Origin: Thermoplasmatales archaeon
GTDB lineage: Archaea; Thermoplasmatota; Thermoplasmata; Thermoplasmatales; GCA-001856825
NCBI GenBank assembly: GCA_026127935.1
Contig: JAJSLL010000012.1
Location: 1-56,211, forward strand
DNA: 56,211 bases
Direction of reading: 5' to 3'
Shown: positions 35,021 to 48,779 of the stretch, one piece after another
Layout of the letters: each line of letters opens with the position of its first letter
Numbering within the stretch: the stretch's first letter is position 1
The notes under the pieces: model-generated
Database searches by the model: none
Seen by the model: the letters and a program-made list of their open reading frames with translations, nothing else
Told to the model about the DNA's origin: nothing
Translations under genes and position numbers: made by a program

Positions 35021-37489
35021 ATGACGCGGAAATTACTCGTCTTTTTGGTGCTGGTGGTTTCCATTGCGATGCTCGTCCCGGGTCTTTCCCTTTTTCAGAA
35101 TTCCCACGCCCCTAGCGCGATAGTCACGCCGTCAATTGCCTCCAGCACACCTGCCGTTTCTATTAACAGCAATTCAATCAGCAACCCTAGCACATACAAG
35201 CACTACTTCCCGCCTAATTTCCATCCTGCAACAAGGGATTCTAACGGAGTAGTCTCCCCTCTGTATACAAATAGCCCGGCTCCCATGGGAGTTGGATCGT
35301 GGGGAATTACAAACACCTCTGGGAACCTTACGGGATTTGTTCTGAACACTTCGAGTTTTGAGGGAACTGCAACTTTGAACAACCTTACGACCCTTGATTT
35401 GACCAATGATGGACCGGATCAATACACGATGCAGCTGAATACTATTCTTAGAAACGTGACGCTCTTTGGCAACTCTAGCTTTGTGTTCTGGACACAGAAC
35501 GTAGTTCTCTACACCGCTCACAACCACACACTCTCCTTTGAGGACAATCTCTGGAATTTTTCGAGTTCTGCATTTAACTTGACACCAAACTCACTCTATA
35601 GTTACAACGGTACAATTGTGCCTTATTCATATTACTATGCAGTCGGTCCGTCACTGAACGTCTCGTATCCATTCACAGTTCATCTGTTCCTGAACTCGAG
35701 TACGCACAACAACAGAAATGCAGTTTATTACAACTATTCGGTGATATCCTCTAACGGGAACTACGGTGGATCTTACGATAGGATAGTGTTCAACAGCACC
35801 CATGGAATGCCTTCGACTTTCGTGACCCCTTTTGCGTACTACCAGATAAACGGGTTCCAGTACACCCCTAACGGATTTCTTCCTTATGATGCGGAAATGA
35901 TGCTAGGCGGTCCGGGTGGAGGCAGTCAGACCAATGTTCTCTCGATTAATGGGACTATGACACTTGACTATCTTCCACAAGGTTCAACCTCAAACAGCTA
36001 CGTTTCAGTTCCATCAGCATACGATTTCGGTTCTGATACTGGGGAAACTTCGTCGGGTATAGCTGAGTGGTGGTCTGGAAATACAGTTCACCTGGATACG
36101 GGTCCATCATTACTCTATCCGATGTGGAATATATCTTCAAATTCTGGCCATCAAACACTCTCAGGCTCGGTCACCCCTTCCAATTCTTTCATATTCATCA
36201 GCAATGGAACGTTCAACAACTATTACGCCGGATGGGCTCCCGTTTCAAACGATGGATCATTCCACTATGAGTTACCGCCAGGAACTTACTCTGGTAAGAT
36301 TCTGATGAGCGAATACAACCCTCTGAACTTCAGTTTCACTTCTTCCAAAACGATGATAGTATCTCTGGTAAAAAATACAGCTAAGGGCATCTATACCCCG
36401 CTGGTTGCAATGAACAATCAGCAGCTTCAGTCAATATCTTCCGGAGGCAGTGGTACTGTAGGGAATCCATACGCGATTCAGAACAATCAGTACTTTGAAA
36501 TTAATCCACTGTTCTGGGAGTGGAACGATTACATGTTCCCTGTGTTCTCTGGAATAATGCTTGTGAACACAGATGCATACGTCACTATATCGAATGCGGC
36601 ACCGTTCCTCATAAACTATCCGTCGTTCACCTACCCACAGCTCACCTATTACGGGCTCCCTGCCTTCAATTTCATGCCCACTGAACTCTACAATACTTCA
36701 CACGTTTCTATCGTCAACAGCCGTTACACGGGCTGGTTTTCTTCAAACCTCAACTTCGGCCTTCCCATAACTGGAAACATAATAATGTGGAATTCAACGT
36801 CAAACCTCATTGCACACAATGACTTCCTCAGCATGGGAAATTCCATCGAGTTGTACGGTGGATCTGGAAACCTGATATGGGGGAACTATTTTGAAGAGAG
36901 TGCGCCAGTAGGCAATATCAATTCGATGGCTTTCGGCACATCTCCGATCGGAATGACGGTCTACTCCTCCAACAACACAATATACAATAACAATTTCGAC
37001 GTACTGCTCACAGTCGTTTCCCTAGATTACAACATTTATAACGGAGGATCTCCAATATATAACAACACCTACAACGTACCTAGCGTACCGCCCTCCACAG
37101 TCATGATGTTCAACGGTATATCGATGTCAGGAAGCGTTGTGAACAACGGCTACGTTTCAGGCAATGTATGGTGGGATGAATTTCCTGGACAGCCTTACAA
37201 TGATTCCGGGTTAATGCAAAGCAGTTACGACTATTCACCCGTCGTTCCTAATTTCTATAACGTGACGGTAACACTGAGCCATAATCAGGGGAGATATGCA
37301 CAGGTATATCTAGTGCAGGACGGCTTCTATCAGTACCTCTTCGAAAACTCCGGAACCACTAACGTCACAGTCCCAGTCTATAACGGAACTTACTATATTG
37401 TCGTGGTCACTAACGGAAACTTCTACTTTGACAGAACCCAAACGATCACAGTTAATGGAGCAGCAACATCTGTCACTGTAAACATCTGA
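35021..37489 (+). CDS. Thermopsin-family secreted acid protease (A5)
   Basis: An 822-residue secreted protein. Residues 4-22 form a signal peptide. From about residue 88 the thermopsin catalytic region follows (PAPMGVGSWGI, then DQYTMQLNTILRNVTLFGN, FVFWTQNVV and LGGPGGGS). Thermopsins are acid-active, thermostable proteases typical of Sulfolobales and Thermoplasmata. The region from about 500 to 700 has NosD-like right-handed beta-helix turns (GNIIMWNSTSNLIAHNDF, SGNLIWGNYF, SNNTIYNNNF). A small beta domain ends the protein. There is no C-terminal membrane anchor, so it is probably released. Many N-x-S/T sites. The ATG follows the box at 34991 by about 26 bases. Confidence 0.9.
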   Translation: MTRKLLVFLVLVVSIAMLVPGLSLFQNSHAPSAIVTPSIASSTPAVSINSNSISNPSTYKHYFPPNFHPATRDSNGVVSPLYTNSPAPMGVGSWGITNTSGNLTGFVLNTSSFEGTATLNNLTTLDLTNDGPDQYTMQLNTILRNVTLFGNSSFVFWTQNVVLYTAHNHTLSFEDNLWNFSSSAFNLTPNSLYSYNGTIVPYSYYYAVGPSLNVSYPFTVHLFLNSSTHNNRNAVYYNYSVISSNGNYGGSYDRIVFNSTHGMPSTFVTPFAYYQINGFQYTPNGFLPYDAEMMLGGPGGGSQTNVLSINGTMTLDYLPQGSTSNSYVSVPSAYDFGSDTGETSSGIAEWWSGNTVHLDTGPSLLYPMWNISSNSGHQTLSGSVTPSNSFIFISNGTFNNYYAGWAPVSNDGSFHYELPPGTYSGKILMSEYNPLNFSFTSSKTMIVSLVKNTAKGIYTPLVAMNNQQLQSISSGGSGTVGNPYAIQNNQYFEINPLFWEWNDYMFPVFSGIMLVNTDAYVTISNAAPFLINYPSFTYPQLTYYGLPAFNFMPTELYNTSHVSIVNSRYTGWFSSNLNFGLPITGNIIMWNSTSNLIAHNDFLSMGNSIELYGGSGNLIWGNYFEESAPVGNINSMAFGTSPIGMTVYSSNNTIYNNNFDVLLTVVSLDYNIYNGGSPIYNNTYNVPSVPPSTVMMFNGISMSGSVVNNGYVSGNVWWDEFPGQPYNDSGLMQSSYDYSPVVPNFYNVTVTLSHNQGRYAQVYLVQDGFYQYLFENSGTTNVTVPVYNGTYYIVVVTNGNFYFDRTQTITVNGAATSVTVNI

Positions 37490-37672: not shown

Positions 37673-37924
37673 GTGAATATCGACAAAAAGACTAGGGCAG
37701 CGATTATAATTTTCGTTGAGGGGGTCGTTGTCTACTTTATCACTTCGTACTTGATCATAGGTCCGTTATTCAGAAAATTCTATGTGAGTCAACCTTTGGT
37801 CAGCGACCTACCGTTTCTAATTGCCTACATTTCTGTCGGCATTGCGGCTGCATTCACAACAATCGCAATGACAATCTACCCGGTATTAAAATTTAGAGAA
37901 GCAGGTGAAGAAGTTGGACAATAA
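37673..37924 (+). CDS. Small two-helix membrane subunit at the head of the oxidase operon
   Basis: 83 residues with two membrane helices (about 9-32 and 47-70) and charged ends. It starts with GTG and overlaps the subunit II gene by 20 bases. Position and size fit a small accessory subunit of the heme-copper oxidase, but I do not recognise the sequence family. Confidence 0.6.
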   Translation: MNIDKKTRAAIIIFVEGVVVYFITSYLIIGPLFRKFYVSQPLVSDLPFLIAYISVGIAAAFTTIAMTIYPVLKFREAGEEVGQ

Positions 37925-38351
37925 GACAAAAGCGGAAGTTGTGTGGATCGTTGCTGTGCTAACCATCTTAGTGTGGGCTGCGGTTTCAAATGCTGCATAT
38001 CTTCACGATAACTCCAGTAGTATTGCAAATCCAGTGGGGGGAAATCCTCAGGGGGTTGTCATCAACGTCACGGGCTACCAATGGGCCTGGACTTTCACCT
38101 ATTCTAACGGTACTAGTTCAATTGACAACTTGTCGCTGAAGGCAGGCACCACTTACACCCTAGTTATCACGAGCAAGGACGTGATTCACGATCTGTACAT
38201 TCCGGAATTTGGGGTTAACGTTTATGCAGTCGCGGGTCACACGAACCAGATAACATTCACTCCAACCAAGGTCGGGACCTACATTTTCGAGTGCGTTGAG
38301 TATTGCGGTGAGTATCACTATGAAATGAGGGGTACGGTGACCGTGACATGA
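37905..38351 (+). CDS. coxB: Heme-copper oxidase subunit II with CuA site
   Basis: 148 residues: one N-terminal membrane helix (about 11-30), then a cupredoxin domain outside the membrane. The CuA ligands are complete: His95 in DVIHDLYIP and the C-x-x-x-C-G-x-x-H-x-x-M loop with Cys130, Cys134, His138 and Met141. The aromatic patch YQWAW, for electron entry, is present. A CuA site means electrons come from a soluble or tethered redox protein rather than directly from quinol. The start is a GTG within the preceding gene. The stop overlaps the subunit I ATG by 4 bases. The short length and single helix resemble B-type oxidases. Confidence 0.93.
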   Translation: MKKLDNKTKAEVVWIVAVLTILVWAAVSNAAYLHDNSSSIANPVGGNPQGVVINVTGYQWAWTFTYSNGTSSIDNLSLKAGTTYTLVITSKDVIHDLYIPEFGVNVYAVAGHTNQITFTPTKVGTYIFECVEYCGEYHYEMRGTVTVT

Positions 38352-39991
38352 CGCTCGGGTTGACTTTTGAACTCGCTGTCTTCGGTTCATTTATTGCACT
38401 CCTGATAGTGACGGGTTTTCTTCTGTACTATTTTGCAGTGGATTACAAGAGGAATCTGCTAGGTGAGGTAAGTTCCGCCCTTCCAAAGAAAGAATCCAAC
38501 ACTGTGTTGTCCAGGATGAAAAGAGAGCTCAGTTTTTCTGCATTCATGATGGATGACAGCAAGTCGATTGGTATCAGATACCTAATTACGAGTCTAGTTC
38601 TCTTCTTCATAGCTGGTCTGGCTGGAATAGGAATGAGAATCTCTCTTTGGTTCCCCGTTCCAAGTTTCTTGACGCCAATTCAATACAACATACTTTTGAC
38701 TGCACACGGGACTCTGATGCTGTACGGCTGGGCCACAGGAAGTATTCTCGGAATGGCTTACTATTTGCTGCCTTCATCCGTCAAACTCAAGAACGACTCC
38801 TTTGGTGTTGTGAGTTCCATAATGTACTGGATGTTCCTCGTTGGATCCCTGTTCGTTATATTTTCAAAGAGCACCGCGACGTGGTACTTCTACTATCCCC
38901 TGGTCGATCAGCTGACGGCTACGGGAGGAGGTCAATATTCCTTTGCAACCCTGATAGGGGTGATGCTGATACTGATAGCCACGACGGTTTCAAGCGTCAT
39001 TTTCCTCAGGATGATATTCTTCGACAGGGACCCGTCCATCAGGCTCTCAAACATGTCTCTGTTTGCTTGGTCGATAGTATCCACTGCATTCCTTATAATT
39101 GCTTCTGCACCTGTCTCTATAATCGCAAATGGGTTCCTGATATACGATAATATCAACCCAATTTTCTTCCAGGCTGGGAATGGTAGCGCACTCGGTTATG
39201 CTATTATGTTTTGGTATTGGGGGCACCCCTTGGTATACGTAGCAGTAATTCCTGCATTCGGACTGATATATGAGATGCTCCCGAGATTCACGGGAACTAA
39301 GATTTACAGCTACAAGTCTGGGGTTTTATCTCTCTTGATGCTCATGATATTGAGCGGAACTGTGTGGGGGCATCATCTTTTCAATAGTGGGTTAGGTACT
39401 GTTTGGGACCTCATATTCTCGACAACTTCCTTCATCGTTGCAGTCCCTTCTGCAATCTCCGTTTTTAATTGGATCGCGACTATGTGGGTTGGCAGAGTAA
39501 AGTTGACTGTACCTATGATGTTCATTATCAACGGAATTATTGATTTCATTATTGGAGGAGTATCTGGAGTGATGCTCGCAGACGTGGGCGCCAACCAGCT
39601 GATTCATGGGACTTATGCTGTTACTTCTCACTTCCATTTCATTTTCTTGGGGCTGACAACGGGTGTTGCATTTGCAGCAATCTATGTTCTTTTCCCAACA
39701 CTCTCTGGTGGGAGAAATTACAATGTCCCTATGGCTAAAGTTCATTTCTACCTTTCAACGATCGGCACAATTATCATGTCTGGATTTTGGCTGGTTGGTG
39801 GATTTGCAGGAATGCCGAGAAGAGTAGCGGGTTATTTCGGAATCTTCCAGACCTATCAGGATGCGGCCGCAGTCGGAGGAGTAATTCTAGGAATTGGGTT
39901 TTTGATATTCCTTATCAACTTCCTATACTCCACCTACAAACCGGTTGAAACAGATACATCCAACATTCTAGAAGAGGAGGTGACATCGTGA
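38348..39991 (+). CDS. coxA: Heme-copper terminal oxidase subunit I
   Basis: A 547-residue catalytic subunit that reduces oxygen to water and pumps protons. Ligands are all visible: His120 (AHGTLMLYGW) and His430 for the low-spin heme, His428 for the high-spin heme (SHFHF), and His293, His342 and His343 for CuB. Tyr297 follows His293 in GHPLVYVAVIPAFG. The Leu in GHPLVY, in place of the Glu of A1-type enzymes, and the small CuA subunit II point to a B-type-like oxidase. There is an extra N-terminal helix before the usual first one. It overlaps both neighbours by 4 bases. Confidence 0.95.
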   Translation: MTLGLTFELAVFGSFIALLIVTGFLLYYFAVDYKRNLLGEVSSALPKKESNTVLSRMKRELSFSAFMMDDSKSIGIRYLITSLVLFFIAGLAGIGMRISLWFPVPSFLTPIQYNILLTAHGTLMLYGWATGSILGMAYYLLPSSVKLKNDSFGVVSSIMYWMFLVGSLFVIFSKSTATWYFYYPLVDQLTATGGGQYSFATLIGVMLILIATTVSSVIFLRMIFFDRDPSIRLSNMSLFAWSIVSTAFLIIASAPVSIIANGFLIYDNINPIFFQAGNGSALGYAIMFWYWGHPLVYVAVIPAFGLIYEMLPRFTGTKIYSYKSGVLSLLMLMILSGTVWGHHLFNSGLGTVWDLIFSTTSFIVAVPSAISVFNWIATMWVGRVKLTVPMMFIINGIIDFIIGGVSGVMLADVGANQLIHGTYAVTSHFHFIFLGLTTGVAFAAIYVLFPTLSGGRNYNVPMAKVHFYLSTIGTIIMSGFWLVGGFAGMPRRVAGYFGIFQTYQDAAAVGGVILGIGFLIFLINFLYSTYKPVETDTSNILEEEVTS

Positions 39992-40548
39992 ACAAAGCAA
40001 CACCGATAGCCCTATTCTTAGTCGTGCTCCTTGCAGCTGGAGGATCCTTCATATGGTTTGTTGAACAACCTAGTTCTATCTCAAATTACTCCGCTACATA
40101 TAATTCGACGAAAGAAATCGTCCTTTACGCTAACGCAATTGGATGGAATTACAACTCTTCAAATCCAAATCCTACCCTATATGAAAAGACTCACGTCTTA
40201 CTGGAATTCAAAGTGATTGAACAGGACAATCTCCCACACACACTTACTGTCAACCCGGGTACAAATGAAAGCACTTCCAATGACGTCTTCAGCGTTAACA
40301 TACCTGCGGTTACAGGAACCATCGTTTGGTTGAACTGGTCCTTCGCAAACCCTGGAACTTTCACTTACTGGTGTGAAGTTCACCCAACAACGATGGTTGG
40401 AAGACTTGTAATCAATGCATCTTCTAGCAACGGAATAAATGCTTCTGCCGTCCCGACAATACAACCACAATCGCCGAGTCTTATATGCTATTCCAATTCC
40501 ATCTATCAACCAGTTTCCTTAAGGGATGCAAATGACGAAGTTTGGTAA
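39988..40548 (+). CDS. Membrane-anchored type 1 copper protein (cupredoxin)
   Basis: 186 residues: an N-terminal signal or anchor helix (about 5-24), then a cupredoxin fold. Type 1 copper ligands are placed at His84 (LPHTL), Cys129, His132 and Met136 in FTYWCEVHPTTMVG. It is the likely electron donor to the CuA subunit of the adjoining oxidase, in the role sulfocyanin plays in other archaea. The GTG overlaps the coxA stop by 4 bases and is preceded by a strong ribosome-binding site, AGGAGGTGA at 39975-39983, decisive for the start. The C-terminal 30 residues are polar, and the last part overlaps the ctaB gene. Confidence 0.88.
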   Translation: MNKATPIALFLVVLLAAGGSFIWFVEQPSSISNYSATYNSTKEIVLYANAIGWNYNSSNPNPTLYEKTHVLLEFKVIEQDNLPHTLTVNPGTNESTSNDVFSVNIPAVTGTIVWLNWSFANPGTFTYWCEVHPTTMVGRLVINASSSNGINASAVPTIQPQSPSLICYSNSIYQPVSLRDANDEVW

Positions 40549-41401
40549 GGTATTCAGCCTGACCAAACCCGGAATAGCAATTCTCCTGAACCTTGTTGCC
40601 GTCACAACCTTTTCACTCGGATTGAAGAGTGTCAGCGAGCTGTGGAAAGTTGTTCCTCTACTGGTATCTGGAACACTTGCGTCCTTTTCATCCTCACTGG
40701 CCAACAACTTCATTGACAGGGATATTGACACCAGGATGGGTAGAACCAGATGGAGAGCTTCGATTGGAAACAGGGCTGGATACATCTTGTCTATACCTCT
40801 CCTGCTTGGAATTTCCCTAACTATTTCGTTAATCTACCTCAATATTCCAACCACTCTGTGGATATTTGGAGGCTTCCTCAGTTATTCCTTACTTTACTCA
40901 GTATTACTGAAGAGAAGAACGAGCTGGAACATCGTGATAGGTGGGGTCGCTGGTTCGTTCCCCGCACTTGCTGGTTGGTCTTCAGTGAACTCTCCAATTT
41001 CTATGATTTCATTCTTTGTGGCGGTCATCGTGTTCCTATGGACACCAACGCACTTCTGGACTCTAGCCCTCAAGTACAAAGAGGATTACATAGAGGCCAA
41101 TATCCCAATGCTGCCTGCTGTGAAAAATGAAAAATATACGGTGAATGCGATCTTAATTAACACAACTGTCCTCGTTGCGTTTTCATTCCTTCCGGTATTC
41201 ATAAATATGGGTTTCCCTGTTTTTTACGACTTGCTTCTAATTCCTCTTTCAGCCTACCTGATCTGGAGAGTTCTCTCACTCAGATTCAAGAATGGAAAGT
41301 CTCTGCTCGCTTCATCGTTGAAGGCATTCCTCGCAAGCAATTACTACCTCTCTGCACTTCTTTCGATTCTGATTCTGGGAACAGTTCTTAGACTGTTGTG
41401 A
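40526..41401 (+). CDS. ctaB: Protoheme IX farnesyltransferase (heme O synthase)
   Basis: 291 residues with 8-9 membrane helices. The enzyme farnesylates heme B to heme O for the oxidase. Family motifs: SLTKPGIAILLN at the start, NNFIDRDIDTRMGRTRWR (first Asp-rich motif, near residue 65), and FLWTPTHFWTLALKYKEDYI with NIPMLP (the heme O synthase form of the second motif). The start overlaps the end of the cupredoxin gene by 23 bases, and an ATG two codons later is equally possible. No heme A synthase is recognisable in the window. Confidence 0.94.
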   Translation: MQMTKFGKVFSLTKPGIAILLNLVAVTTFSLGLKSVSELWKVVPLLVSGTLASFSSSLANNFIDRDIDTRMGRTRWRASIGNRAGYILSIPLLLGISLTISLIYLNIPTTLWIFGGFLSYSLLYSVLLKRRTSWNIVIGGVAGSFPALAGWSSVNSPISMISFFVAVIVFLWTPTHFWTLALKYKEDYIEANIPMLPAVKNEKYTVNAILINTTVLVAFSFLPVFINMGFPVFYDLLLIPLSAYLIWRVLSLRFKNGKSLLASSLKAFLASNYYLSALLSILILGTVLRLL

Positions 41402-41405
41402 TGAA

Positions 41406-42746
41406 ATGAAGAAGTCCTTGTTGAATACCCTTCCTCTCATTTTAATTTTCCTTCTCTGGAATGCTCCTTTCTTCTTTAAGGGCTTTGTAATACAAAGCAC
41501 GATTTTCCTAGAGCTACTTGGCTTGACGATCTCTTTGTTTACATTCCTTTCAGTCTCAGCAATTTACTTCAAGAGATTGGGCGCTCTTTACCTCATACTT
41601 TCCCTTTCCTCTGCGGTCTTCGCGATCATTTTCGGTGTTGCCGGTTCCATAAGATTTGTCCTATTCTATCTTGGTGCTCTCGCGATTGCTTCTAGATACT
41701 TTTTGAGTCTGAGAGAAAGAGGGGATCTCGCTGTTGGATCTGCTTCGGTTGGCTTACTACTACTCCTTCTTGTGCTTTCCACTAGTTTACGATTTATTCA
41801 CTTGGGCACTCTCCAATCGACTGGGTATCTCTACTCTATCTACAACGATGCTTCACCTGTTGGCGTCCCATTCACCTATGCTTATGGTCTTGTATTTGTG
41901 CTTGGTCCTTTTAGTCTAACAATTTCTCCCATCACAGGATTCCTCTTTCCACTGGTTGCTTATCTCACTTCAGCTAACACGTTTCTCATAATCAACGCCT
42001 TCCGAACTAGGGGGGTTACTTCCGTTAGTGCAATCGTCGTTACTGCCATAGCCTGCCAGTGTGAAAACACCATAGGTATCGTATCTGGAACTGTATCTTC
42101 TCTAGCACTCTCTATTCTTCCTTATTTCATATTCATATCTGTTGCCCTCCTGATACTTACAAACATTTACCTCCACAGACCTAGAAAAATGAGAGTACCA
42201 GAAATTAACAAGTTATCGATGCTACTCTTGTTCATCTCTATACTGGCTGTGGAGTTCGCAATTATCTATACGGGTATGATTTACAATCTTGCCGTTTTCG
42301 GGTTTACCTCATTCCTTACTCTATTCTCAGGGTTCCTGCTAGGACAGACGTTGAAAATAAACTGGAAGATGCCTGTCTACATCATTATTCTGCCATTCGT
42401 GATACAAATGGTCATGTTCGCTCCTTCGTTTATAAGGGAAGCCCTAACTTCTCCAAGTGTGTTCGAGCTTTATACCATCGCTGGTATGATCGCTGGCCTC
42501 CTGATCTCACTTTCGTTCAGAAACAGAAACGTTCTTTCCAAGATTACCATTTTCGAATTTGTGTTCTCCATGGAAACAATGATCGCTGCTGTACTCCTCT
42601 TCCTCTCTATTTTTTCTGTTTCCTTTTTCACAGGTTATTCGGAGATTGCAGTCGTAGACTTTTCGGTCTTCATTCTTGTTGTGAGCCTGCCGTTGATGTG
42701 GTTTTCAAACATCTATCTACTCAGTGCGAGGGTTTTTGGAAGCTAG
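41406..42746 (+). CDS. Twelve-helix membrane protein of the oxidase operon with a CQCE motif, function unknown
   Basis: 446 residues, almost wholly hydrophobic, about 12 helices. Its only charged or sulfur-rich feature is AIACQCENTIGIVSG near residue 218, a Cys-Gln-Cys-Glu motif at the start of a helix. It is the last gene of the oxidase operon, starting 5 bases after ctaB, so assembly of the oxidase, such as copper handling, or a transport role linked to it are plausible. I know no characterised family. The end overlaps the convergent polyferredoxin gene by 30 bases. Confidence 0.75.
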   Translation: MKKSLLNTLPLILIFLLWNAPFFFKGFVIQSTIFLELLGLTISLFTFLSVSAIYFKRLGALYLILSLSSAVFAIIFGVAGSIRFVLFYLGALAIASRYFLSLRERGDLAVGSASVGLLLLLLVLSTSLRFIHLGTLQSTGYLYSIYNDASPVGVPFTYAYGLVFVLGPFSLTISPITGFLFPLVAYLTSANTFLIINAFRTRGVTSVSAIVVTAIACQCENTIGIVSGTVSSLALSILPYFIFISVALLILTNIYLHRPRKMRVPEINKLSMLLLFISILAVEFAIIYTGMIYNLAVFGFTSFLTLFSGFLLGQTLKINWKMPVYIIILPFVIQMVMFAPSFIREALTSPSVFELYTIAGMIAGLLISLSFRNRNVLSKITIFEFVFSMETMIAAVLLFLSIFSVSFFTGYSEIAVVDFSVFILVVSLPLMWFSNIYLLSARVFGS

Positions 42747-44666
42747 CCTGTCCTTGACGACATTTCTGATATCGTAGAAGTGGATATTGTCATAGGGACA
42801 GGCTTCAATACAAGACCCAGCACCAACGCACTTCTGGCTCTTGAAATATCCATTCTTTATGAACTGTGCAGGGAGATCGCCAAGGCCAACTTCACACGCA
42901 GTCACGCAGTCCTTGGTCGGGCACTTAAGGCACACATTCGGGTCTACTGCCTTTATCTTGAATAACCCAAGTTTGCTGAAGAATCCGACGAAGGTTCCGG
43001 TAGTACACCAGCCGTATCTTCTGCAGGGGCTCATGCCAACGAACGGTATTGATATGAAGAAAATGTACCACAGCATGTTCCATATTAGTAAAGAATAGAG
43101 AATTGCCGGATCGAACGGAAGGTTGACCAGGTGGATTGAAATTGCAAAACTAGCTAACGCAGACCCGAGCATGAACAACCAGCTACCTGCCGCCACCTTT
43201 TGGATCAATGGAGAATACTTGCTACCGATATTCTTCTTGCTCGTTTTCGATTTGTAATTCAGAGAGATCATTTCCTGACCCAAAGTTCCCCCATACATTA
43301 CCGCTGATGGACACAGTGTTCCACAGTAGGATCTCCTTCCGAACAGTAGTGCAAGTATAGCGTAGACCAGATAAGAAAGAAGTAGAGGTAGTATCAAGGC
43401 CCCCCGGACAGATCCAAGTGCACCTACATTAGCCCAGAGCGGTAAATTTCTCCACCAAAGTATATAACTCGGCCCATAGAGAGTGTAAGTGAAATATGCG
43501 ATAAGGGCAAATAAAAGGTTTATCCTCTTTTCAAACCATTTGATTCTCTTCATCCTGAAGACTACCAGGGCACCCATCTCTAATCCCATCAGCAGGAGGA
43601 ACATGGGTGAAGCAGCCACAATACCGATGAATGGAATAATGGACAGGTAAGCACCACCTGTGAAGTGGAATCCCACCACATTGGTGATAAGATTTGACAG
43701 CGATCCTGGTCCATTCCCACTTGTTGAGAACCAGCCAGCGGATATGTCTAATGGAATGCTCATGAGCAACTCGGCGACAAAAGTTGCCGAGAGCACAAAA
43801 AATAACCAGTACCTCTTCTCAATCCATCCCTTTATCCTCTTGGTCTCTTTACCGCTGAAAACGTAGAAGAAGTAAAGTCCCATACCAAGGAGAACAGAAA
43901 GTGCGTATGGGAGCCAATAAATTTCGTTCTTTTGTCCAAGCGCATAAAAGAGGAAAAAGCCAACAGAATTCAGGACATAAACGAGGATTGATATGTCTAT
44001 CATTCTCTTCTTTTGTGAGGTTATTCCGCTCTTTGAATTTGAGACCTCTTCTAGGATTAGTATCATCCCTGCGACCATTATCAGAGCATTTGCTACAAGG
44101 AGTTCAACGTGAAAAGTGGAGAAGAGAGCGGGTGACAGAATATCCATTGCTGCCAGGGCAACTAGCAAATATCGAATTGTCCCCTTTATTTTGAAGAAAA
44201 GTATGGAGGCCACCATTTCGGCTTCCATCGGCAACACGAAGTAGAAAGAATTGATTGTCTGTGGGAGCTCTGTCAGAATATTGACGTTCAGTCTGAACCC
44301 CAGGAGTTTAAAGACAAAGAACGTCATCAAAATCTCATTCAATACGAAGAGTACGGGCAGTAGAAGTCTATTAACATCCGCTCGTGTCTTCCATTCCATA
44401 GAGTAAAAATAGAAGAGAACAACCAGGAAAGAAATCATTGGAACCATGATGATATTTATGGCGATTATTGAGTTCAGGAATCCATGGGGTTCACTCAAAT
44501 ACCAGCTAAGACCTATGAACATGCTGGCCATCATCAGCAGCACAAAATAGAACAGATACCGCACTTTTTTTGATGCTTTGCCAGTTGAAAAATAGTATTC
44601 AACGTAGACGATGATCCAAACCATCAACGCAATCGTTGAGTATGCTGCAATTTCTCCGGCAAACAC
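42717..44666 (-). CDS. Multi-helix membrane polyferredoxin (NapH/CcoG/NosR-type cysteine motifs)
   Basis: 649 residues. About the first 400 are hydrophobic, with ten or more helices. A 4Fe-4S membrane module follows, with YCGTLCPSAVM near residue 442 and SPCRRYGWC near 555. Two ferredoxin clusters end the protein: CLKCPTKDCVTACEVG (near 577) and CVGAGSCIEACPY (near 614). The cysteine pattern resembles NapH, CcoG and NosR proteins, which pass electrons across or along the membrane, or help assemble copper oxidases. The long N-terminal membrane part is not typical of those. The GTG start lies about 25 bases from a TTTTATAT box at 44687-44694. It is convergent with the oxidase operon. Confidence 0.8.
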   Translation of the reverse strand: MFAGEIAAYSTIALMVWIIVYVEYYFSTGKASKKVRYLFYFVLLMMASMFIGLSWYLSEPHGFLNSIIAINIIMVPMISFLVVLFYFYSMEWKTRADVNRLLLPVLFVLNEILMTFFVFKLLGFRLNVNILTELPQTINSFYFVLPMEAEMVASILFFKIKGTIRYLLVALAAMDILSPALFSTFHVELLVANALIMVAGMILILEEVSNSKSGITSQKKRMIDISILVYVLNSVGFFLFYALGQKNEIYWLPYALSVLLGMGLYFFYVFSGKETKRIKGWIEKRYWLFFVLSATFVAELLMSIPLDISAGWFSTSGNGPGSLSNLITNVVGFHFTGGAYLSIIPFIGIVAASPMFLLLMGLEMGALVVFRMKRIKWFEKRINLLFALIAYFTYTLYGPSYILWWRNLPLWANVGALGSVRGALILPLLLSYLVYAILALLFGRRSYCGTLCPSAVMYGGTLGQEMISLNYKSKTSKKNIGSKYSPLIQKVAAGSWLFMLGSALASFAISIHLVNLPFDPAILYSLLIWNMLWYIFFISIPFVGMSPCRRYGWCTTGTFVGFFSKLGLFKIKAVDPNVCLKCPTKDCVTACEVGLGDLPAQFIKNGYFKSQKCVGAGSCIEACPYDNIHFYDIRNVVKDRLASKNPRTE

Positions 44667-45702: not shown

Positions 45703-46320
45703 TCAGGTTGGAAGTAGGGTCGTGGCTATTCCTGGATAATGTGCAAGCAGTGGAAACAGGGCCCAGATCACAAAGTGCAGCGTTGCTGCAGGCAAGAAAT
45801 TCTTCGAGAATTTTGTAATGACTCCGTAAACCATCCCCATTCCCAGAACCGAGGTCAATAAAAGGAGGTTGAAGGGGAAAGGATAAGCTGCTCCGTGGTC
45901 TGCGATAGCATACTTCGAATAATAGGCCATATAAATCAGAGCTTGTAAGAAAAGGGCGGCATATGGTGACATATTCCGAAACAAGAGTCTTTGAATCAAA
46001 TATCTAAAATTGAATTCTTCTATTATCACGGGTGTCAGGAGTATTATTGGCAAGAATTTGGCCCAGCTAGGGTCCGTGATGTAATAAAATATTATCAACA
46101 ACAAGAATGCAGAAACAAATATGGAGAATTGAACCATTGAAGTTTTGAAATCTTGATGCACTTCATTTCTGAAAAATACCATACTCAATGGTATTGAAAA
46201 GATGCCTGCGGCTATGCTGATATAGTTCGCAAATTCGCTGTTGAAAAGAATGAACAAAAATCCAGCTATGAAAAATAATAAGAAATCTGCGCCTATCAAG
46301 GACCTTTTTATCCATTCCAT
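45703..46320 (-). CDS. CPBP-family intramembrane protease-like protein
   Basis: 205 residues, about seven membrane helices. The first catalytic motif of the CPBP (Abi/CAAX protease-like) family, E-E-x-x-x-R, is present as IIEEFNFRYLIQRL (Glu101, Glu102, Arg106). The last motif gives His182 in LHFVIW. The middle F-x-x-x-H motif is altered: the expected His is Tyr in ALIYMAYYS. It may therefore be an inactive or modified relative. Starts at an ATG 26 bases from a box at 46341-46350, divergent from the Rieske gene. Confidence 0.75.
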   Translation of the reverse strand: MEWIKRSLIGADFLLFFIAGFLFILFNSEFANYISIAAGIFSIPLSMVFFRNEVHQDFKTSMVQFSIFVSAFLLLIIFYYITDPSWAKFLPIILLTPVIIEEFNFRYLIQRLLFRNMSPYAALFLQALIYMAYYSKYAIADHGAAYPFPFNLLLLTSVLGMGMVYGVITKFSKNFLPAATLHFVIWALFPLLAHYPGIATTLLPT

Positions 46321-46394: not shown

Positions 46395-47123
46395 ATGAAT
46401 GAGGGGATCGATGAACCGAAGAGAAATTTTCTCAAGTTAATGGTCACTGCATCGATCGTAGCCGGCGCCGGTTTATCTCTGGGAGTTGTTTTAAAGTCAT
46501 TGACCCCGCCGCAAGCGGGGATAGCTAGTTTTCCCAGCCTGAAATTGGTAGATTCCAACGGGAATCCACTACTCGCTTCAAGTTTAAGTGTTAATAATCC
46601 CAATGCCCTTCAATTCAACTATCCGCTTCAGGGCACGCCAAACAATATACTTAATGTGGGTGATGCAAGTGGGACTCCTATCAAGATCAGCTCCACTCAG
46701 GTCACGGTTCCTGCTGACGGCAGCAAATATAGTTCATATGCCGGAGTAGGGAAAGATCAATCGATTGTCGCTTATAGTGCCATATGCCAACATCTCGGTT
46801 GTGTTTTCCCCGAGCTCAGGTTCTATCCAAACGGTGTTGAGAGCATAACTGTTGGGAGCGAGTCCTATACCGGGGTATTTCACTGCCTGTGTCACGGCAG
46901 TACCTATGATCCTGAAAGCGGTGCTTCTGTACTGACTGGTCCGACAACACACCCCCTACCGATGATCAAGTTGGTTTGGGACCCAAGTACAGATGAACTA
47001 TCAGTTTCAAACATGGTTGGACCAACAATTTACGGAAGGACTTCGGATCTACAGGGCGAGACTGCCATAAGTGGAACAACTACTGAAGTTACGGATCTTG
47101 GAAATCCCTTTACGGTGGTATGA
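46395..47123 (+). CDS. Rieske iron-sulfur protein
   Basis: 242 residues. An N-terminal membrane anchor (about 14-35) is preceded by EPKRNFLKLM, a Tat-like motif with Lys-Arg instead of twin Arg. The Rieske fold follows, with the two cluster-binding boxes CQHLGC (Cys131, His133) and CLCHGSTYD (Cys164, His167); Cys136 and Cys166 would form the disulfide. It receives electrons from quinol at the cytochrome b encoded next and should pass them to a copper protein. Nine bases separate it from the cytochrome b gene. Confidence 0.94.
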   Translation: MNEGIDEPKRNFLKLMVTASIVAGAGLSLGVVLKSLTPPQAGIASFPSLKLVDSNGNPLLASSLSVNNPNALQFNYPLQGTPNNILNVGDASGTPIKISSTQVTVPADGSKYSSYAGVGKDQSIVAYSAICQHLGCVFPELRFYPNGVESITVGSESYTGVFHCLCHGSTYDPESGASVLTGPTTHPLPMIKLVWDPSTDELSVSNMVGPTIYGRTSDLQGETAISGTTTEVTDLGNPFTVV

Positions 47124-47132
47124 GGAGTTCAA

Positions 47133-48779
47133 ATGACATCAATAAGAGAAAGAATAAATCGGGTTAGAAAGAATTTCAAAAGTCCAACAGAATGGTTAAT
47201 GGACAGAACTCACATCGATAGACTTCCTCTAAGGAAAACACCTGACTACATGAGAACATGGGGAGGGAAATGGTACTGGACAGGTGCACTGATCACTATC
47301 GCGTTTACCTATGAAGTTCTGACGGGACTGGTTCTTCTCCTCTACTACAATCCGGCAGACCCATACGTTTCCACACAGTACGTCCTAACCACTGTGCCCT
47401 TCGGTAAACTCATTCTTGGGACACATCTATATGGGGCGTATGCAATGATTGTTCTTGTTTACGTCCACATGTACCGAAACTATTTCGTTGGAGCATATAA
47501 AAAACCGAGAGAATTACAGTGGATCATTGGAGTACTTCTGCTTGCTCTCACAATAGGCGCCGGATATTTCGGATATTCGCTCACGGGAGATGTCCTTTCC
47601 GTCGATGCCCAGGACGTTGGGAGAGGAATTGCATCCCTTATTCCAGTGTTAGGACCTTGGCTCGCGTCTATTGGATTTGGAAATGGTACAACTACCAGCT
47701 TGTTTTCCAAGTTCTTGGGGTATCACATCATCATGGCAGCTTTGATTGCGCTTCTATTTGGATATCATTTCTACCTTGCAGAAGCGAATACTATGCTTCC
47801 TTCTTCAAAGGCAAGCAAGTATAGGGTCCCAGCCACAACTCCGGAAACACACGACATGAAGCCATGGTATCCGTCTAACTTCCTTTATCTGATCGAACTC
47901 GGTCTATTTACAATGGGTTTCATTATACTGATCCCGAGTTTTGTGGGACTGTTCCCCAATGCTCCGATCCTCATATCTCCTTATCCTGGCCCTTCACCAA
48001 CAAGTGCCTTGGCAGCACTTATACCTCCTTATCCCCCATGGTTTCTGCTTTTCCTGTACAAAGCACTAGACTTTGGGATGTTCCAGAACGTGATGGGTCC
48101 CCTCACGGCTTCTGTAATATTTGGGCTCTTGCCATTGATCTACTTTCTCTTGATCCCCTTCCTGGATAGAGGGAATTCCCTTCATCCTCTCCACAGACCG
48201 ATTACGACTTCGCTGGGAATAATAAGTATCGTCTACATGATAATATTCAGCATCTGGGGTGCGTTTTCACCGGGAGTTATCATACAACCGCTGGTAGTCG
48301 CAGAGGTTCTACTTCCACCACTTATAGTCACATTCGGGACCGTGATGGGAATTTCAAGATTGTGGAAGAAAGGCAAATTGAAGATAGGAAACAAGTCATC
48401 CACCACATCTTTTCTGATATTCATTTTGGGGTTGGTGGTGACAGTGATTCTCACTGGTTATTCATTTTCATACTTCGTGGTGCACACATCTTTACTGTCT
48501 CTCGGCAGGTTGATTCTTACTGGCGGAGCCACAAGCTTTTTAGCCATCGGTACTGCGAAAACCAGCTCCCAGCTCCCGGACCAGAAATTCAAGAAGATAC
48601 CTACCGGAGCCTACATAGCGATCGTGCTGTTGACTCTCATGTGTTGGGTGCTGCTCGGGATCTCATTAAAACTGAACCCAGTCACACAGGCGATGACAGT
48701 TGGAATGGCACTCGGCACCGTTTTGATCTTCTCTGGGATAGTACTTGCAATATACAGGCGAGTTATGTTTGGCGAGTAG
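47133..48779 (+). CDS. Cytochrome b of a Rieske/cytochrome b complex
   Basis: 548 residues, about 12 membrane helices. Two pairs of heme ligands in the canonical H-x13-H spacing: His98/His112 and His198/His212. The Qo-site PEWY motif appears as PPYPPWFLLF near residue 300. A C-terminal extension of four or so helices, beyond a normal cytochrome b, resembles those of archaeal SoxC/SoxG-like proteins. GAGGAG at 47122-47127 is a clear ribosome-binding site. With the Rieske protein it forms the quinol-oxidising complex. There is no cytochrome c1 gene nearby, consistent with copper proteins as acceptors. Confidence 0.93.
   Translation: MTSIRERINRVRKNFKSPTEWLMDRTHIDRLPLRKTPDYMRTWGGKWYWTGALITIAFTYEVLTGLVLLLYYNPADPYVSTQYVLTTVPFGKLILGTHLYGAYAMIVLVYVHMYRNYFVGAYKKPRELQWIIGVLLLALTIGAGYFGYSLTGDVLSVDAQDVGRGIASLIPVLGPWLASIGFGNGTTTSLFSKFLGYHIIMAALIALLFGYHFYLAEANTMLPSSKASKYRVPATTPETHDMKPWYPSNFLYLIELGLFTMGFIILIPSFVGLFPNAPILISPYPGPSPTSALAALIPPYPPWFLLFLYKALDFGMFQNVMGPLTASVIFGLLPLIYFLLIPFLDRGNSLHPLHRPITTSLGIISIVYMIIFSIWGAFSPGVIIQPLVVAEVLLPPLIVTFGTVMGISRLWKKGKLKIGNKSSTTSFLIFILGLVVTVILTGYSFSYFVVHTSLLSLGRLILTGGATSFLAIGTAKTSSQLPDQKFKKIPTGAYIAIVLLTLMCWVLLGISLKLNPVTQAMTVGMALGTVLIFSGIVLAIYRRVMFGE

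Follow-up and report, generated by a model that had tools for sequence, protein, structure and literature searches.

A family of archaeal membrane proteins with an invariant CQCE motif, often encoded beside copper electron-transfer proteins

Sco proteins expose a soluble copper-binding domain. The same is said of Cox11 and PCuAC in excerpts of a review of copper-site assembly in heme-copper oxidases (PMC6696091); because the word "archaea" is absent from that text, the way in which copper sites are filled in archaeal oxidases that are without Cox11 and PCuAC, and that have no clear Sco, appears to be an open question. Handling of copper by proteins embedded in the membrane has been described as well. 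CcoA/CalT, copper importers of the MFS type, are hydrophobic many-helix proteins tied to oxidase biogenesis and marked by conserved MxxxM and HxxxM motifs, and CcoG acts in oxidase assembly as a cupric reductase (both according to portions of PMC7558416). The P1B-type Cu(I)-ATPase CopA has an intramembrane Cu(I) site made up of CPC, YN and MxxSS, as set out in part of PMC9433437; a Cys-x-Cys pair inside the membrane can thus serve Cu(I), because CopA employs one together with Asn, Met and Ser.

Here we describe a 446-aa protein that heads an undescribed family and carries a Cys-Gln-Cys-Glu (CQCE) motif. Its gene lies in a 56,211-nucleotide stretch of DNA from a Thermoplasmatales archaeon, referred to below as the window (Table 1). 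A preliminary description of this DNA had placed the gene last in an oxidase operon that includes heme O synthase, and both points are borne out: the genes for oxidase subunit II, subunit I, a cupredoxin and CtaB follow one another in this order, they and the leading gene for a small membrane protein overlap from one to the next, and the CQCE gene starts 4 bp after the CtaB stop. At its 3' end, the gene overlaps convergently by 30 bp with that of a NapH-like Fe-S protein. The CuA-type ligands of the window's subunit II (H, C-x-E-x-C, H, M) are invariant across 11 aligned relatives. The genome to which the window belongs holds a single copy of the CQCE gene.

Table 1. Genes and codons in and around the oxidase operon, in window coordinates.
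Feature	Position	Strand	Remarks
83-aa membrane protein, operon gene 1	37673..37924	+	no Pfam match
Oxidase subunit II	37905..38351	+	CuA-type ligand set
Oxidase subunit I (COX1)	38348..39991	+	PF00115, 2.1e-108
Cupredoxin (blue copper protein)	39988..40548	+	weak match in window; above cut-off in relative L044
Heme O synthase CtaB	40526..41401	+	TIGR01473 over cut-off
CQCE membrane protein gene, 446 aa	41406..42746	+	ORF
Codon N191	41976..41978	+	fifth invariant residue; helix before CQCE helix
Codons C217 Q218 C219 E220	42054..42065	+	invariant, 103/103 full-length homologues
Codon E384	42555..42557	+	E in 98, Q in 5 of 103
649-aa membrane protein, 4Fe-4S motifs, NapH-like	42717..44666	-	TIGR02163, 5.5e-11, below cut-off
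Rce1-like (CAAX) membrane protein	45703..46320	-	relatives directly after CQCE gene in many other oxidase operons
Rieske protein + cytochrome b	46395..48779	+	Rieske PF00355; cytochrome b from sequence and gene order

The window protein matches no Pfam or NCBIfam family at E<=10 and no PDB sequence family, in agreement with its first labelling as a protein of no known kind, and a literature search returned no description of a CQCE membrane protein. Searching the PDB with the family profile drew antibody light chains only (E 0.017-3.2, profile positions 143-177), which we take to be chance matches. DUF1404 (PF07185) is matched at E<=1 by two of 30 homologues, the better of them at 2.1e-4 and 21.5 bits against a cut-off of 29.4; this match covers residues 267-414 of homologue L013, outside CQCE, and the window protein gave none.

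Relatives were found in 51 of 400 genomes of the class by a single-sequence search with the window protein, and the 30 best of them, once aligned, all carry CQCE. A family profile built from 39 sequences matched 37 of 389 genomes in a sample of the phylum, all of them in the window's order, and 88 of the 117 genomes of that order, which we read as Thermoplasmatales because loci of Ferroplasma acidarmanus, Acidiplasma aeolicum and I-plasma occur in the same tree. The scope of the profile search was the phylum; a separate scan of 84,980 species used a seed pattern requiring CQCE, so that scan cannot test the invariance of the motif.

How strictly is the motif kept? Among 103 distinct full-length homologues, many of which share just about 20-25% identity, five columns are invariant (N191, C217, Q218, C219 and E220), and if they were placed at random over 482 columns, the chance that four of the five would be adjacent is about 1e-6. 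C217 and C219 are the sole cysteines of the window protein. Homologues lacking the motif, which would have spoken against the earlier proposal, were not found among the full-length sequences. Over all distinct hit ORFs, CQCE occurs in 106 of 112; the six others are incomplete sequences, either fragments or halves of a frameshifted gene, from which the motif region is missing, and in the frameshifted gene (L142) CQCE is encoded in another frame. The hits are independent of the motif, since the CQCE-free fragments still match at E 1e-30 or better. The earlier view of CQCE as the only conspicuous polar feature proved incomplete, given N191 and the near-invariant E384 (Glu in 98, Gln in 5); the other near-invariant columns are W432 (102 of 103), G364 and I195 (101 each), and P340 and P429 (100 each). 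No Met or His column is invariant across the 103 rows: M389 is Met in 74 and M431 in 88, and His reaches at most 17 in any column.

Two of the earlier structural readings did not hold up against an AlphaFold2 model of the window protein (pLDDT 82, pTM 0.78), which predicts about 14 long helices and a strand-containing loop (residues 125-174) where 12 helices had been proposed, and which puts CQCE at residues 11-14 of the helix 207-230 rather than at a helix start, with moderate confidence for this block (pLDDT 66-74). In the model of a Ferroplasma homologue (pLDDT 73, pTM 0.70), CQCE occupies residues 269-272 within helix 258-277. We predict that CQCE lies inside a membrane helix, with the strand-containing loop two helices upstream and, judging from the distribution of charges, facing the outside. 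Neither model has a Foldseek match at E<=0.001 (best 0.69 for the window model and 0.48 for the Ferroplasma model). In VIA comparisons, where a Z below about 13 between helical bundles may be chance, the window model reached at best Z 6.6 over 86 residues and the Ferroplasma model Z 9.8 over 113 of its 538 residues; the latter matches were to transhydrogenase membrane parts (ranks 1-8), which cover residues 330-450, after the motif. MFS chains matched with low Z (5-6.3) over 97-132 residues, or with 12-18 A rmsd over longer ranges. On the basis of these models, we do not claim the fold as new.

Set beside the described copper proteins, the family shows partial likenesses to each. As in CopA and its P1B-type relatives, an invariant Cys-x-Cys sits in a predicted membrane helix and an Asn on another, but the pair reads CQC instead of CPC, the window translation holds neither DKTGT nor CPC, and an ATPase domain, an invariant Met/Ser set and any Pfam match are lacking. 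Like CcoA/CalT, the protein is hydrophobic, many-helical and tied to oxidase genes; unlike CcoA, with its conserved MxxxM and HxxxM (portions of PMC7558416), it lacks invariant Met and His residues and matches no MFS family. The role proposed below, copper loading of oxidase copper sites, is also that of Sco1, Cox11/CtaG and PCuAC, whereas the CQCE protein is, in its model, almost wholly membrane helix and, being without any Pfam match, matches none of their families. The convergent neighbour resembles CcoG/NapH in that it is a membrane protein, carries 4Fe-4S motifs and is encoded next to oxidase genes, but its match is NapH-like, weak and below cut-off, and CcoG is absent among the best 25 families listed for it.

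The genomic neighbourhoods of 98 distinct CQCE genes fall into a few types. Thirty-five genes are no more than 100 bp from CtaB, and COX1 was seen at 33 of them (the L032 and L151 stretches are incomplete), and ten adjoin the Fe-S gene in a Ferroplasma/Acidiplasma-type locus, with COX1 2.2-5.8 kb off in eight (the L064 and L069 stretches end before it). A second partner is a protein family that we label c6: for 19 genes, cytochrome b is no more than 200 bp away, and 16 of these also have c6 at up to 2.6 kb (L150, L152 and L162 are incomplete); nine more are no further than 160 bp from c6 and have no cytochrome b over 2.6 kb. Fifteen adjoin a VIT1-like/DUF211 pair and have no copper protein in the stretch examined. 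The last ten have other contexts: one is 1.3 kb from CtaB (L123), one 4.1 kb from COX1 (L040) and two 6-9 kb from an oxidase operon (L057, L058); in L056 and L137 the stretch ends at the CQCE gene on one side and the Rce1-like gene is next; and in L041, L046, L133 and L135 the stretch examined holds no copper gene. COX1, COX2, cupredoxin or c6 occurs within 3 kb of 63 of the 98 genes, and anywhere in the stretch examined for 71. In genera g9 and g17 (L105-L122), the CQCE gene follows the DUF211 and VIT1-like genes in place of an oxidase operon.

The c6 proteins are found in 72 of the 117 genomes of the order, beside Rieske/cytochrome b genes. They measure 224-274 aa with an N-terminal hydrophobic stretch, and HTF, WQCxxPCG and GWM are invariant in 23 distinct copies (examples are L100:7413-8120, L124:7499-8173 and L145:9837-10616). 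At E<=1, the c6 profile matched ten CuA subunit II chains and three MotY in the PDB, all weakly, the ten best being the subunit II chains (E 0.17-0.36), and in the alignment the invariant His and two Cys of c6 fall on those of the CuA domain. Matches to Pfam and NCBIfam were below cut-off or absent, two of three c6 proteins having no Pfam match, and when the c6 profile was compared with the local CoxII, it was the N-terminal parts that aligned and not the Cys; "CuA-like" is therefore a likely, though unproven, description. We regard c6 as likely an exported CuA-like protein, judged by its sequence, and possibly as the electron acceptor of a bc-type complex. The window's own genome has tandem c6 genes (410-421 aa) with Rieske and cytochrome b genes after them, at G000:C4:922-4473 (L182); no CQCE gene stands alongside this cluster, to the contig end.

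Clades of the family track their own copper partners, the oxidase or c6. A maximum-likelihood tree of 99 rows was computed by a quick method, without bootstrap and with warnings of long branches. In it, rows with c6 or Rieske/cytochrome b contexts fall together in a single group of 30 (SH-aLRT 100), those with the VIT context in one of 15 (SH-aLRT 99), and the window sequence among the oxidase-operon rows. Context labels change 11 times on this tree against 56.2 in shuffles, none of 200 being as low. Across the 117 genomes of the order (given as both / first only / second only / neither), the counts are 78/10/2/27 for the family and COX1, 87/1/2/27 for the family and COX1 or c6, and 28/2/4/83 for the c6-clade and "long c6", for which the limit (E<1e-85) was chosen with the data already in view; Fisher p is <1e-15 in all three, values that are inflated because the genomes share kinship and because families f2 and f4 lack everything. 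All these counts come from genomes that are not independent in kinship. The c6-clade and COX1 give 24/6/56/31 (p 0.17) and the other clades and COX1 75/5/5/32, with COX1 calls weak or incomplete in G339, G657 and G666, while any c6 at all is present in 28 of 30 genomes with the c6-clade against 44 of 87 (p 1.9e-5). The five genomes of genus g8 keep the CQCE gene without COX1, and in all five it lies 6-157 bp from c6, so that the family looks linked to copper electron-transfer proteins and not to oxidases alone; one of the five copies looks N-terminally shortened (437 versus 487-488 aa). The co-occurrence with CuA oxidases foreseen in the preliminary description is thus strong but not exclusive, and linkage to oxidases holds in part, 28 of the 98 genes being in c6 or Rieske/cytochrome b contexts and 15 in VIT1-like/DUF211 contexts.

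That no copper chaperone is visible, first noted for the operon, extends to the order: Cox11 and PCuAC were found in 0 of 117 genomes each, and no Sco was found in the window's own genome, with control matches among 14 known genomes for Cox11 (one) and PCuAC (three). Sco matches in the order are marginal, at 19-25 bits: 52 of the 117 genomes have one at E<=1e-3 and 15 exceed the cut-off of 22.8 bits, the best at 24.8 bits. They are mostly frames of 150-200 aa and occur also in COX1-free genomes (G075 and G650), and are probably thioredoxin-fold relatives. In the control genome of Sulfolobus acidocaldarius, COX1 matches and Sco and CtaA do not. The own genome also encodes a 77-aa HMA protein (G000:C28:77439-77669, or L180:9440-9670), followed by a 477-aa ORF. 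We did not count the HMA protein as a copper chaperone, because the adjacent ORF is presumably MerA-like. It further encodes a CPC-type P-type ATPase, which could export or supply Cu(I) alone and so counts against a copper role for the CQCE protein.

A role as heme a synthase was considered because PF02628 has no match over cut-off in the 117 genomes. CtaA has conserved His residues as heme ligands, and among the 103 rows of the CQCE family there is no conserved His column of the kind that marks CtaA/Cox15; we rejected the role. It is further weakened by a 261-aa membrane protein near Ferroplasma-type loci (L168:6931-7713 and relatives), which by eye looks like a divergent heme a synthase and has no Pfam or NCBIfam match. 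Also against it is the report, in part of PMC12808453, of other types of heme a synthase in Ca. Thermoplasmatota.

What might such a protein do? A copper-loading factor fits, because a Cys-x-Cys-Glu and an Asn are invariant and predicted to be buried, the copper carriers encoded nearby would face outward, and the usual chaperones are absent. We hold, with about even confidence, that the CQCE protein is an integral-membrane maturation factor for outward-facing copper electron-transfer proteins that passes Cu(I) via a buried Cys-x-Cys-Glu/Asn site. In this scheme, C217 and C219 would hold Cu(I) within the membrane-embedded part of the protein, E220, N191 and possibly E384 would aid its capture or release, and the metal would then move to an empty copper site in a partner whose gene lies close by. 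Where the CQCE gene is part of an oxidase operon, this acceptor would be CuA, CuB or the blue copper protein; in clusters of c6, Rieske and cytochrome b genes it would be the CuA-like c6. The NapH-like Fe-S neighbour, possibly a partner of the CQCE protein and perhaps a metal reductase, may give electrons, for example by keeping copper as Cu(I). Somewhat more tentatively, we propose that these proteins are Cu(I) chaperones or transporters of a new, membrane-embedded class that has no relation to Sco, Cox11, PCuAC, CcoA and CopA. Archaea of this order would employ them for loading CuA-type and blue copper electron carriers, with some paralogues specialised for the oxidase and others for the CuA-like carrier of the Rieske/cytochrome b chain.

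The first proposal, a new assembly or copper-delivery factor, is thereby supported in part and widened, from oxidase assembly to a factor linked to copper carriers. Linkage to and co-occurrence with copper sites, as expected of an oxidase copper-maturation factor, were both found, with exceptions. Against a copper role stand the absence of an invariant Met or His, the 15 genes in VIT context and four others that have no copper neighbour, the c6-Rieske-cytochrome b cluster of the own genome that has no adjoining CQCE gene, and the weakness of the resemblance of c6 to CuA. The family is a concrete and widely conserved candidate, with five invariant residues and two separate partner proteins; if the copper-loading reading is true, these organisms of metal-rich acid waters would have a copper-loading route built inside the membrane.

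The same genetics would result if the Cys-x-Cys cycled between dithiol and disulfide in the membrane, via quinone or the Fe-S neighbour, and kept both Cys of apo-CuA or apo-c6 in reduced form for copper entry. Both partners have a conserved Cys-x3-Cys, homologues of the NapH-like Fe-S membrane protein lie within 200 bp of 28 of the 98 CQCE genes, and no invariant Met or His accompanies the Cys. Such a thiol-redox maturation factor would nevertheless leave the invariant Gln and Glu of the motif and N191 unexplained, and the window protein matches nothing in Pfam; we consider this explanation unlikely.

Slightly less likely still is that the protein is a subunit, structural or accessory, of the oxidase and the Rieske/cytochrome b complex, for example a docking platform for a supercomplex. 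The gene shares their operons, the protein is by its model membrane-embedded, and part of PMC8280799 describes a complex of 850 kDa from Ferroplasma acidiphilum that includes sulfocyanin and aa3 oxidase. Yet the CQCE protein is much less conserved than the core subunits (at L035/L036, about 50% against 74% for subunit I; at more distant loci, 22-31% against about 50%), the five invariant residues around CQCE resemble a site and not an interface, and some copies lie away from all respiratory genes. Were the protein such a subunit, or a thiol-redox factor, it would still name an unannotated part of the respiratory chain.

We think it quite improbable that the protein transports or handles another respiratory need (iron, heme or another metal), as might be suggested by the 15 genes that adjoin one for a VIT1-like protein (match to PF01988 at 1.1e-4, below cut-off) and by the heme O synthase gene directly upstream, given that the family has no conserved His for heme, that Ca. 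Thermoplasmatota have heme a synthases of other types (part of PMC12808453), and that the c6-adjacent genes L124, L129, L143 and L144 have none of the searched heme genes within about 6 kb.

Two further observations concern the surroundings of these operons. A thermopsin protease (PF05317, 2.1e-62) is encoded just 5' of the window's oxidase operon, at 35021-37489, and in the uncultured archaeon ASS_A1 two CQCE genes flank an oxidase cluster (G178:C1:1276461-1292175, with COX1 at 1282093).
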